Shown piece by piece: positions 42,163 through 45,505 of a stretch of 64,000 nt of DNA; the first letter of the stretch is position 1; each line of letters starts with the position of its first letter. The position numbers and the translations under genes are program-made. Source of the DNA: Clostridia bacterium (lineage in GTDB: Bacteria > Bacillota > Clostridia > UMGS1883 > UMGS1540); assembly GCA_017620205.1 (NCBI GenBank), contig JAFZQX010000046.1, positions 1-64,000 on the forward strand. The letters run 5' to 3'. The notes beneath the pieces are model-generated. The model made no database searches and was not told the origin of the DNA. It saw only the letters and a program-made list of their open reading frames with translations.

Positions 42163-42204
42163 TGCCATGCTATTCTATGGCAAATTGGCGTAAAAATTGG
42201 CGTA
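42163..42204. repeat. Candidate element end: inverted TGCCAT/ATGGCA plus direct AATTGGCGTA repeats
   Basis: TGCCAT (42163-42168) and ATGGCA (42177-42182) are inverted around 8 bases. Two direct copies of AATTGGCGTA follow at 42183-42192 and 42195-42204. A further ATTGGCGT occurs at 42525-42532. Such clustered short repeats are typical of tyrosine-recombinase arm/core sites, but no integrase is in the window. Confidence 0.45.
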
Positions 42205-42337: not shown

Positions 42338-42366
42338 TTGACCTTTTTCTTTTAAAGTGATATAAT
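42338..42366 (+). promoter_or_regulatory. Promoter before the DUF4238 remnant
   Basis: TTGACC (42338-42343), 17 bases, TATAAT (42361-42366) preceded by TGA. Intact although the gene behind it is truncated. Confidence 0.7.
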
Positions 42367-42385: not shown

Positions 42386-42475
42386 ATGGGAAAAAACCAA
42401 CATTACGTTCCCCGATTTTACTTGAAATTATTTTCAAATGATTCTAAGAGTATTGGGACATGGGTTTCTAAATAG
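42386..42475 (+). pseudogene. N-terminal remnant of a DUF4238-family protein
   Basis: ATG 42386 opens a 29-codon frame, MGKNQHYVPRFYLKLFSND and a short tail, ending at TAG 42473-42475. The KNQHYVPRFYLK motif is the hallmark N-terminus of DUF4238 proteins, which are normally about 250-350 residues. No continuation of the family is visible in any frame downstream. I therefore read it as a decayed or truncated gene with its promoter still intact. It lies between the ATTGGCGT repeats at the left edge of the element. Confidence 0.7.
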
Positions 42476-42541
42476 GTTAGTTATATCAAATGAAAAAGAA
42501 ACGGTGTAGTCGTATTTAATCTTTATTGGCGTGACAATATT

Positions 42542-42573
42542 GACAGTCTATAAAAATATAGGCTGTCTTTTTT
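42542..42573 (+). terminator. Terminator upstream of repA
   Basis: GACAGTCTATA (42542-42552) pairs with TATAGGCTGTC (42557-42567, one G-U pair) around AAAA, followed by six T. It insulates repA from transcription entering from the left or acts as a leader attenuator. Confidence 0.8.
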
Positions 42574-42607: not shown

Positions 42608-43618
42608 ATGGCTGTGGAATTTGATTATTTCTACGGAAGCGAAGCAGAGCAATACGCCTTTTACAGAATACCGAAGCTGCTTATTACTTCGCCTATGTTC
42701 AAGAAAGTGTCCGACGGCGCAAAGCTTTTGTATGGCTTAATGCTTGACCGTATGTGTCTTTCTGTCAAAAACGGTTGGGTTGACGAGGGAAACCGGGCAT
42801 ATATATATTTCACTACAAACGATGTAATGGAGCAGATGAACTGCGGGACGGAAAAAGCAACAAAAATGCTCGCTGAGCTTGACGGCGAAAAGGGAATAGG
42901 TTTAATAGAACGCAGAAAACAGGGACAGGGAAAGCCCGCTTTGGTCTATTTAAAGAAGTTCTATACCGAAGATGAAAGCAATCGAAAAGGCAGACTTTCG
43001 GAAACCGAAAGTCAAGACTTCGGGAAATCGAAAGTCAAGACTTTTGAAAATCGAAATTCAAGAGTTTCGGAAACCGAAATACAAGACTTTCGGAAATCGA
43101 AATCTAATAATACTGATAATAGTTATACTGAATATAATAATACTGAATCTATCAATCATATCATATCATATCCAAACAACAAAGAAGAATATGACGCCGC
43201 CGAAGCCGATACGGTGATTGATACGATAGGATGGATAAACGAGCGCACAAAGTATAAAAAAATCATTAAAGCAAATATTGAGTATGATATTTTGTGTGAA
43301 AGATACGAAAAGGAATGGCTTGATGAAATAGTTGCGCTTATGGTAGATGTCGTGTGCAGAAAAGAGCCGTATATACGCATAAACAAACAAGACTATCCCC
43401 ATGACGCAGTAAAAAGCAGGTTTTTGAGTATAAACAGCAATCATATTGAATACATATATCTCGCTTTGAGAGAAAACAGTTCAAATGTCCGTAATATACG
43501 GGCATTTTTAATTACAACTATTTACAGGTCTTTTGAAACCTCAAATAATTGGTTTTCCGCAAAAGTAAACTACGATTTGAAAAACGGAAACAGAGCGGGG
43601 GTGTCGGCAGATGAGTGA
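42608..43618 (+). CDS. repA: RepA_N-type replication initiator
   Basis: 336 residues; ACGGAGG upstream of the ATG. N-terminal RepA_N winged-helix domain (about 1-120): FYRIPKLLITSPMFKKVSDGAKLLYGLMLDRM, shown in part by FYRIPKLLI and LLYGLMLDRM, then TTNDVMEQMNCGTEKATKML. The middle (about 128-178) is a low-complexity linker encoded by the iteron-like DNA repeats. The C-terminal domain (about 205-325, IGWINERTKYKKI onward) matches the DUF6017-type region of these initiators. Such proteins start theta replication of plasmids and of excised integrative elements. Stop overlaps the next start (ATGA). Confidence 0.9.
   Translation: MAVEFDYFYGSEAEQYAFYRIPKLLITSPMFKKVSDGAKLLYGLMLDRMCLSVKNGWVDEGNRAYIYFTTNDVMEQMNCGTEKATKMLAELDGEKGIGLIERRKQGQGKPALVYLKKFYTEDESNRKGRLSETESQDFGKSKVKTFENRNSRVSETEIQDFRKSKSNNTDNSYTEYNNTESINHIISYPNNKEEYDAAEADTVIDTIGWINERTKYKKIIKANIEYDILCERYEKEWLDEIVALMVDVVCRKEPYIRINKQDYPHDAVKSRFLSINSNHIEYIYLALRENSSNVRNIRAFLITTIYRSFETSNNWFSAKVNYDLKNGNRAGVSADE
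42991..43104 (+). repeat. Five tandem 22/23-bp iteron-like repeats inside repA
   Basis: Units run 42991-43012 (22 bp), 43013-43035, 43036-43058, 43059-43081 and 43082-43104 (23 bp each). Each has a core like CGGAAATCGAAA, and the first contains the palindrome ACTTTCGG-AAA-CCGAAAGT. Because 23 is not a multiple of three, the repeat is conserved as DNA rather than as peptide. RepA_N replicons are known to carry their origin inside the rep gene, so this is the probable oriV. Confidence 0.85.
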
Positions 43619-43817
43619 TTTGCACAAAAATTATCAAATGCTTGCAAGAGCAATAGTGGTTCAGGCAATCAAGGATTACAGATACAGCGGAAATGATGAG
43701 GTAAGAAAATCTATCGAAGAATTCTTCAGATCCGGTTATTTTTCGCTGCTGTGTGACTATGACGGCAACGAACTGATACGAAAATTAAGAAGGGAAAGGC
43801 TGATGAAAATTGGGTAA
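43611..43817 (+). CDS. Small hypothetical protein between repA and parA
   Basis: 68 residues (YQMLARAIVVQAIKDYRYSG, EEFFRSGYFSLLCDYDG). It starts inside the repA stop (overlap 8 bases) and ends 8 bases into parA, so it is translationally coupled on both sides. Mostly helical and charged; no family that I can name. Confidence 0.7.
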   Translation: MSDLHKNYQMLARAIVVQAIKDYRYSGNDEVRKSIEEFFRSGYFSLLCDYDGNELIRKLRRERLMKIG

Positions 43818-44628
43818 AGTAATTGCGGTGGCAAACCAAAAGGGCGGAGTTGGCAAAACCACAACAACCATAAATCTTGGTATAGGACTTGTAAACGAGG
43901 GGAAAAAGGTACTGCTTATAGATTGCGACGCACAGGGCAGTTTGACGCAGAGCTTGGGTTATCAGGAACCTGACAAGCTGAGCGTTACTCTTTCAACCCT
44001 CATGCAAAAGACGATAGAGGAACAGCCTATAAAGCAGGGCGAGGGCATATTGCGCCATAACGAAGGCGTTGATCTTGTACCGGCAAACATAGAGCTTTCG
44101 GGCATGGAAACAGCGCTTGTAAACGTGATGAGCCGTGAAAGAGTGCTTAAAAACTATATCGACTCGGTAAAAGAAAATTACGATTATGTGCTTATTGACT
44201 GCACACCGTCACTCGGTATGCTGACAATAAATTCACTTGCGGCGGCAGATGAGGTGATTATTCCCGTGCAGGCGCACTACCTGCCGCTTAAAGGTTTAGA
44301 GCAGCTCGTTTCAACTGTAACCAAAGTTCAGCGCCAGATAAATCCGGACTTAAAATTCAACGGCATATTGGTTACAATGGTAGACCGCAGAACGCTGTAT
44401 AACAAAGAGGTTTCATCGGTAATAAGGCTGAACTACGGTAAATACCTGAAAATCTTTAAAACGGAGATACCTCATACTGTCAAGGCTGCTGAGGCTTCGG
44501 CTGTAGGAAAAAGCGTTTATGCGTATGACAGCAAGGGACTTGCGGCGGAAGCGTACAGAAATCTGACAAAGGAGGTGCTTGATAATGGCAAACATAGGGA
44601 TAAACATCGGGAAGACTACACTCGATGA
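43810..44628 (+). CDS. parA: ParA/Soj-type partition ATPase
   Basis: 272 residues from a TTG start. Deviant Walker A NQKGGVGKTTTTINLG near the N-terminus, Walker A' LLIDCDAQGSLTQSLG, Walker B YVLIDCTPSLGMLT, and DRRTLYNKEV. It partitions the element when it replicates, with ParB. A TTG start overlapping the upstream ORF suggests coupling. Confidence 0.94.
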   Translation: MGKVIAVANQKGGVGKTTTTINLGIGLVNEGKKVLLIDCDAQGSLTQSLGYQEPDKLSVTLSTLMQKTIEEQPIKQGEGILRHNEGVDLVPANIELSGMETALVNVMSRERVLKNYIDSVKENYDYVLIDCTPSLGMLTINSLAAADEVIIPVQAHYLPLKGLEQLVSTVTKVQRQINPDLKFNGILVTMVDRRTLYNKEVSSVIRLNYGKYLKIFKTEIPHTVKAAEASAVGKSVYAYDSKGLAAEAYRNLTKEVLDNGKHRDKHREDYTR

Positions 44629-45505
44629 CTTGTTTAAAACAGACGAGGGCAGAAAAGCGGAAGAAATAAAGTCTGTTAAAATCGAGGAATTAAAACCGTT
44701 TGTGGACCAGCCGTTTAAAGTTCTTGAAGATGAAAGCATGGACGAGCTTGTCGAAAGTATAAAACAAAACGGTATTTTGTCGCCGATACTTGTAAGGACG
44801 CACCCGGACGGAGGTTATGAAATCATATCTGGACACAGACGTGTTCACGCCTGTAAACTGGCAGGAATACCTGAAATTCCAACGGTCATTAAAGAGCTTG
44901 ACGATGATACGGCAATTATCCGTCTTGTTGACAGCAATTTGCAAAGAGAAAACATATTGCCGAGCGAGAGGGCAAAAGCGTATGAAATGAAGCTTGAAGC
45001 CATGAAAAGGCAAGGCGCGAGAACTGATTTAACTTGTGACCAATTTGGTCACAAGTTGGAAAATAAAAAAAGTGTTGAAATAATGGCTGAAAACTCAGTT
45101 GATAGTCGCAACCAAATACAGCGCTACATACGCCTTACAAACCTTATAGAACCAATACTTGATATGGTTGACAATAAGGAGATTGCTTTAAATGCCGCCG
45201 TTGAATTATCTTATCTCGGCTCAAAGGCTCAAAGCGAGGTTTTGTATGCTATTGAGAGTGAGGCAACAGCACCGTCTATTGAACAAGCAAAGAAGATACG
45301 CAAATTTAGTGACGATGACAGATTAAATCCCGATGTGATTCTTTCTATTATGCAGGAACAAAAACCCGATAAAGTTAAAATAACACTTAATAATGAACAG
45401 CTTAAAAAGTTTTTCCCAAAGAACTATACCAAAAAGCAGATGGAGGATATTATTATAAAACTGCTTGAAAATTGGCATCGTAAAAGAGAAGATAAGGAGA
45501 GATAG
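44585..45505 (+). CDS. parB: ParB/Noc-type partition protein
   Basis: 306 residues from ATG 44585 (AAAGGAGG 8 bases upstream), overlapping the end of parA. ParB/Srx-like CTPase domain: VDQPFKVLEDESMDEL, NGILSPILVRTH, ISGHRRVHACKLAG, DSNLQRENILPSERAKAYE. Central helix-turn-helix region about 160-215 (SRNQIQRYIRLTNLI). It loads at parS and interacts with ParA. A perfect palindrome lies within its coding sequence (45031-45057). Confidence 0.93.
   Translation: MANIGINIGKTTLDDLFKTDEGRKAEEIKSVKIEELKPFVDQPFKVLEDESMDELVESIKQNGILSPILVRTHPDGGYEIISGHRRVHACKLAGIPEIPTVIKELDDDTAIIRLVDSNLQRENILPSERAKAYEMKLEAMKRQGARTDLTCDQFGHKLENKKSVEIMAENSVDSRNQIQRYIRLTNLIEPILDMVDNKEIALNAAVELSYLGSKAQSEVLYAIESEATAPSIEQAKKIRKFSDDDRLNPDVILSIMQEQKPDKVKITLNNEQLKKFFPKNYTKKQMEDIIIKLLENWHRKREDKER
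45031..45057. repeat. Perfect 11-bp inverted repeat inside parB
   Basis: AACTTGTGACC (45031-45041) and GGTCACAAGTT (45047-45057) flank AATTT. Perfect arms of this length in coding DNA are unusual. Candidate parS or operator site; no second copy was noticed in the window. Confidence 0.8.

Follow-up and report, generated by a model that had tools for sequence, protein, structure and literature searches.

A 23-bp iteron array inside repA as the probable replication origin of an ICE-like conjugative element of Clostridia

The window analysed here is a stretch of 64,000 nucleotides from the gut-type genome of a Clostridia bacterium (contig JAFZQX010000046.1), and its repA gene carries a tandem repeat centrally in the coding sequence, between the parts encoding RepA_N and DUF6017. 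What such repeats do inside a gene is the question raised by this locus. We consider it highly probable (about 0.9) from sequence comparison that they are RepA-binding iterons of a RepA_N-type theta origin inside repA, where RepA would bind, the DNA would unwind and replication would start once the element is circular. The array is very probably of a known kind, the iteron origin of pSK41-type RepA_N replicons, here on an ICE-like conjugative element (PMC5703833, PMC7145576). An origin-type array in repA had been proposed by the sequence-only reading, and the family-wide 23-bp period and this published precedent support it. We report the array, selection on its DNA, the covariation of its arms with the recognition helix, and the unstable and patterned DNA that adjoins it.

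The array and its initiator

TRF places the array at 42992–43103 with a period of 23, 4.9 copies and 84% matches, the best-scoring tandem repeat of the window. Five full units, which keep the consensus, and a partial sixth are present, starting at 42980 and ending at about 43104–43117. The unit spacings in a repeat search are 23, 23, 23 and 23. Thus the five tandem units between the RepA domains described earlier stand, and their period, given as 22/23 bp, is exactly 23. The maximal lag-23 segment score of repA is 63. Shuffled versions of the gene score 10 on average and 16 at most in 200 first-order Markov shuffles, and at most 15 in 200 codon shuffles. A chance origin of the repeats is excluded.

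The unit consensus is GA-n1n2-T-n3n4-G(A/G)-AAA-T-C-n4'n3'-A-n2'n1'-TCAA, which in this repA reads GACTTTCGGAAATCGAAAnTCAA. The dyad ACTTTCGG-AAA-CCGAAAGT pointed out in the sequence-only reading is indeed perfect, and it is the best predicted site for a RepA dimer. The dyad layout around AAA is found family-wide, not only in this repA. The features of the locus are listed in Table 1.

Table 1. Features in and around repA, with positions in the window
Feature	Position	Strand	Description
Promoter-like site TTGACC-17-TATAAT	42338–42366	+	TG before second hexamer; 11/12 consensus; upstream of leader
Terminator-like hairpin	42542–42567	+	11 bp, U6; 40 nt before repA ATG; candidate attenuator
repA	42608–43618	+	336 aa; RepA_N, disordered linker, DUF6017
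Iteron array	42980–43117	+	23-bp units, 5 full and a partial sixth
Perfect dyad ACTTTCGG-AAA-CCGAAAGT	42994–43012		Arms converge on AAA
AT-rich block, 15-bp period (AATAATACTGA...)	43105–43146	+	Most codon third positions are T (TnnTnnT)
ATC chain, 4–5 nt spacing (ATCTATCAATCATATCATATCATATC)	43147–43172	+	Mainly DUF6017 lineage
68-aa ORF	43611–43817	+	Between repA and parA; without Pfam family; phrog_7024 match (function unknown)
parA-type ATPase	43810–44628	+	AAA_31, E=1.4e-59
parB	44585–45505	+	ParB_N, E=6e-24

In Pfam, the RepA_N domain (PF06970) covers residues 17–91 of RepA (E=1.2e-27; 96.1 bits, cut-off 30) and DUF6017 covers residues 213–327 (E=2.1e-31). The linker, at about 123–203, is disordered in the predicted model (pLDDT below 50), with the two folded domains on either side. 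The N-terminal domain matches 4pql, 4pt7, 5kbj and 4pta by both sequence and fold, and 5kbj is a Rep–DNA complex. This similarity, together with the helix and wing covariation presented below, supports the earlier suggestion that the array is suited to binding by the RepA_N winged helix. The C-terminal domain is DUF6017, not Bac_RepA_C; among RepA_N proteins this domain reportedly differs between host genera (PMC5703833). In a fold search, DUF6017 matched none of the known RepA or DnaD C-terminal domains clearly, and no mention of DUF6017 was found in the literature searched. Over its full length RepA matches PHROG 7882, which carries the label DnaD-like helicase loader.

The rep gene of pSK41 has four centrally placed Rep boxes, which constitute the ori, and its linker is dispensable when an origin is provided (PMC5703833). 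The present repA resembles those of pSK41 and pTZ2162 (PMC5703833; PDB 4pt7, 4pta, 5kbj) in its RepA_N winged-helix domain, its origin-encoded linker, its tandem semi-palindromic iterons, which sit in the middle of the gene and converge on an A tract, and the terminator-like hairpin of its leader. The two Staphylococcus plasmids that were checked share the 23-bp period and the unit skeleton. Unlike pSK41 and pTZ2162, the window RepA has DUF6017 in place of Bac_RepA_C, and its gene belongs to a conjugative element integrated in a Clostridia genome. The Vibrio phage satellite PLE (PMC7145576, PMC8263062) also has a RepA_N initiator and semi-palindromic iterons, but these are about 30 bp long and occupy a non-coding region outside repA.

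In the preferred reading, N-terminal winged-helix dimers of RepA would bind each 23-bp unit, in which two arms, each about 8 bp long, meet at the AAA tract. The recognition helix (residues 81, 82 and 85) and the wing (residue 104) would determine specificity. RepA bound at the phased array would open the adjacent AT-rich stretch 43105–43172, and host replication proteins would load there, presumably in contact with the RepA C-terminal domain. The array would set incompatibility too.

A profile search of genome contigs with an alignment as the query yielded 80 loci; the same contigs gave no matches to the single RepA protein. To these 80 loci the family set adds 13 loci on viral contigs and a small number in whole genomes. 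The best lag is 23 in 77 of the 87 relatives with linkers long enough to test, a count to be read with the kinship of the relatives in mind, which inflates the statistics. Comparison of repeat numbers between related elements, as had been suggested, gives about 2 to 10 iteron copies per relative, mostly 3–7. The 23-bp period also occurs inside rep of Staphylococcus equorum, S. epidermidis, Aerococcus, Anaerococcus, Latilactobacillus and Monoglobus plasmids, and in Streptococcus phage SW2. Across the relatives the unit keeps a fixed skeleton, GA..T..G(A/G)AAA(T/A)C..A..TCAA, and the arm positions vary yet remain complementary pairs. RepA_N genes of the window type are also present in L117 and other MT83xxxx entries, which are unverified 'Bacteriophage sp.' faecal records; 23-bp iterons were seen in L117, the single one of these records that was read. 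Rather than phages, the MT83xxxx records may represent fragments of plasmids or conjugative elements.

The element around repA

The gene order is repA, the 68-aa ORF, parA, parB, a 3034-aa ORF, MobC and a relaxase. The adjacent parAB of the sequence-only reading is confirmed by Pfam. The 3034-aa ORF looks like a helicase/methylase fusion, judging from its sequence, and the relaxase (PF03432) is still within the window. Beyond it, at about 66.3–72.8 kb of the 96-kb contig (C8), a T4SS-DNA_transf coupling protein and a VirB4-type ATPase (TraG P-loop match) score above cut-off and a TrbL/VirB6 match slightly below; NlpC/P60 protein is also encoded on this remainder of the contig. To the left of repA are ordinary chromosomal genes (RicT, DNA polymerase III delta', cyclic-di-AMP receptor). 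An IS200-type transposase gene (L106:13521–13964, C8:75521–75964) adjoins the probable right end of the element, with no integrase nearby. Near the left end, two 12-bp direct repeats AAATTGGCGTAA lie at 42182–42204; these may be arm sites for an integrase, or a coincidence.

A search of contig C8 limited to the tyrosine and serine recombinase families PF00589 and PF00239 found neither. Comparison of the left and right flanks for att direct repeats gave matches of chance length only, the longest of 13 bp. An intact ICE would carry its own integrase at one end; because no PF00589 or PF00239 recombinase was found on the contig, the element is called ICE-like, and the window copy may never be circular. 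The sequence-only reading had the element replicating autonomously after excision. The par, relaxase and T4SS genes agree with autonomous replication; excision finds no such agreement, there being neither a recombinase of these two families nor an att pair. Replication after excision is nevertheless plausible by analogy with the family (PMC4701971). The Tn5252- and Tn1549-family ICEs and TnGBS have, as here, a RepA_N initiator and ParA, and their extrachromosomal replication has been proposed (PMC4701971). A term search of that paper found no mention of iterons; here a probable in-gene origin is described and compared across about 80 relatives.

The missing recombinase and att pair would also fit a relic, that is, a once functional origin on an element now trapped in the chromosome, with the array kept only by recent descent. 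This concerns the window copy alone and is compatible with an origin in the family at large. We consider it rather unlikely, since the reading frames of repA, parA and parB are all open and intact, the array units hold their consensus, and the relaxase, coupling protein and VirB4-like genes are open as well.

DNA beside the array and the repA leader

Two further DNA blocks, absent from the sequence-only reading, follow the array. The AT-rich block adjoins it directly, and the least stable 60 bp of repA, rank 4 in the window, begin at 43105. In 82 relatives, T occupies the third codon position of this block 909 times, against 519 expected from pooled codon use in the rest of the same genes (z value 24, inflated by the kinship of the genes). 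The excess is seen in 81 of the 82. Among threonine codons, ACT makes up 82% in the block versus 17% elsewhere. The other three bases all fall short of expectation at third positions, so the bias is for T on the coding strand and not merely for A+T. The T-biased block is kept in RepA_N genes of both Clostridia and Bacilli.

The block is a candidate unwinding element and, by its pattern, a candidate DnaD-type recognition element. Like the DnaD recognition element of Bacillus subtilis oriC (PMC10201434), it has 5'-TnnT-3' pairs on one strand beside an initiator array. At oriC, DnaD binds the TnnT element, which is located opposite the DnaA-trios (PMC10201434); for the block beside the array the likeness is one of sequence. 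DnaA-trios were considered for the block and rejected, as its triplets misfit 3'-GAT-5' and TnnT fits better. No exact DnaA box is found near the array, only two sites with one mismatch, both within the part encoding the C-terminal domain.

The ATC chain follows the AT-rich block, and its triplets occur in all three codon phases. A chain of at least three ATC is present in 69 of 82 relatives and in none of 502 control stretches taken from these genes. The chain distinguishes the window repA from the Staphylococcus replicons, which have none; it is also absent from the Aerococcus and Anaerococcus plasmids and phage SW2, and the L. curvatus plasmid has at most 2 ATC. Where the RepA_N gene carries another C-terminal domain the chain is absent or short, and two DUF6017-type genes, L002 and L055, also lack it.

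These blocks allow a tentative reading, possible rather than probable, in which RepA_N origins are three-part cassettes in the linker of their own gene, made of iterons with arm letters readable from four RepA residues, a third-position TnnT run that recruits DnaD, and a lineage-specific ATC chain linked to DUF6017. If so, the TnnT run would recruit DnaD onto one strand as at oriC, and the recruited DnaD would be either that of the host or a DnaD-like part of RepA. The TnnT block offers a handle on whether plasmid-type origins share the single-strand signal of the chromosome.

Upstream of repA, a terminator-like hairpin occurs within 180 nt in 45 of 87 relatives, compared with 1 of 60 shuffled controls. 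In staphylococcal RepA_N plasmids the leader is used for control, its OFF form being a putative terminator (PMC8129170). Attenuation in the repA leader is plausible on this sequence pattern; alternatively the hairpin could be the end of a short ORF at 42387. The promoter-like site in Table 1 may likewise serve that ORF, and promoter matches overall are no commoner than in shuffles. An antisense RNA check of the leader region found only a weak minus-strand promoter match, and an Rfam search of the leader gave no match. The short ORF itself (42387–42476, MGKNQHYVPRFYLKLFSNDSKSIGTWVSK) lies behind a good promoter match and presumably resembles a truncated DUF4238-type N-terminus.

The leader hairpin suggests control of repA expression, and RepA_N rep genes are controlled for copy number. 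The array might then bind RepA for autoregulation or incompatibility only, with replication starting elsewhere on the element, which is integrated and has no visible integrase. We hold this to be improbable. The central Rep boxes of pSK41, the best-studied family member, serve as its ori (PMC5703833), and the AT-rich, third-position-biased block stands beside the array family-wide, as expected for an opening site.

Selection on the DNA and the arm–helix correspondence

The non-triplet period had been taken as showing that the DNA, not the peptide, is selected. Since 23 is not a multiple of three, the units are read in all three phases (codon phases of successive unit starts 0, 2, 1, 0, 2, 1), but the period alone is no proof, as it could also arise in a neutral minisatellite. 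The selection on DNA is upheld instead by synonymous sites and by the comparison across the family. In the five closest relatives of the window repA, the third codon base is identical in 92–97% of array codons where the amino acid agrees. The corresponding identity is 48–55% in the N-terminal domain and 58–63% in the C-terminal domain, the latter for four of the five relatives, with L039 left out because it is truncated there. Nucleotide identity of the array (85–92%) exceeds its amino-acid identity (69–86%). By these sequence comparisons the array is selected as DNA, not as peptide.

Covariation between arms and protein was measured by corrected mutual information across 48 representatives. 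The arm letters are linked best to columns 104 and 111 in the wing and to columns 81, 82 and 85 in the recognition helix. Helices and arms pair as GTEKAT with CTTTC, GHNKAV with CTTCC, GNDKAV with CTTCG, ARQKA with AGTAT, and TQKAV with ATTGT. The first arm position is mostly C with lysine 104 and mostly A or G with arginine 104.

Relatives were clustered by their C-terminal domain, and arm letters were then predicted with whole clusters left out. Helix and wing together predict 74.5% of the letters, and residues 81, 82, 85 and 104 alone, picked on the same data, predict 74.2%. The C-terminal domain predicts 46%. The rest of the N-terminal domain predicts 66%, and 200 random sets of four other columns of this domain predict 51% on average and 71% at most. 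Shared ancestry thus supplies part of the covariation signal. In a literature search for RepA_N with DnaA-trios or the recognition helix no prior report was found; as far as that search reached, the covariation and the two adjoining blocks may be new. For the PLE satellites it has been reported before that the RepA_N domain and the origin covary and are swapped as a module (PMC7145576, PMC8263062).

A neutral minisatellite in a disordered linker tolerant of any peptide, with a pattern due to repeat expansion alone, would fit the predicted disorder and a non-triplet period that leaves the peptide unconstrained, yet it is scarcely credible when array synonymous sites are almost fixed among relatives widely different elsewhere, when Clostridia and Bacilli share the period, the AAA centre and the GA/TC frame with arms that change in complementary pairs, and when the arms track the recognition helix.

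With the iteron origin as the preferred reading, a probable origin is identified for widespread, little-studied Clostridia elements with RepA_N-DUF6017 initiators. The arm–helix code also gives a sequence-readable guess at whether two origins have shared or different specificity, and hence whether they can coexist in one cell. Three replicons outside the training set fit it by eye, though not blind: the S. equorum plasmid (T81, Q82, R104) has ATTTT arms, the L. curvatus plasmid (H81, N82, R104) has ATTCC arms, and Monoglobus (D81) has ATCGT arms, the same as L009. An example lies in the window genome itself, where a second RepA_N-DUF6017-type gene (L002, contig C5:38773–39630) has about three iterons, and some 8 kb upstream of it lies a tyrosine integrase. 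Its arms GAAATGTGAAAATCACACATC and helix CQNQKAN are both unlike those of the window element, and from these sequences the two elements are predicted to be compatible.
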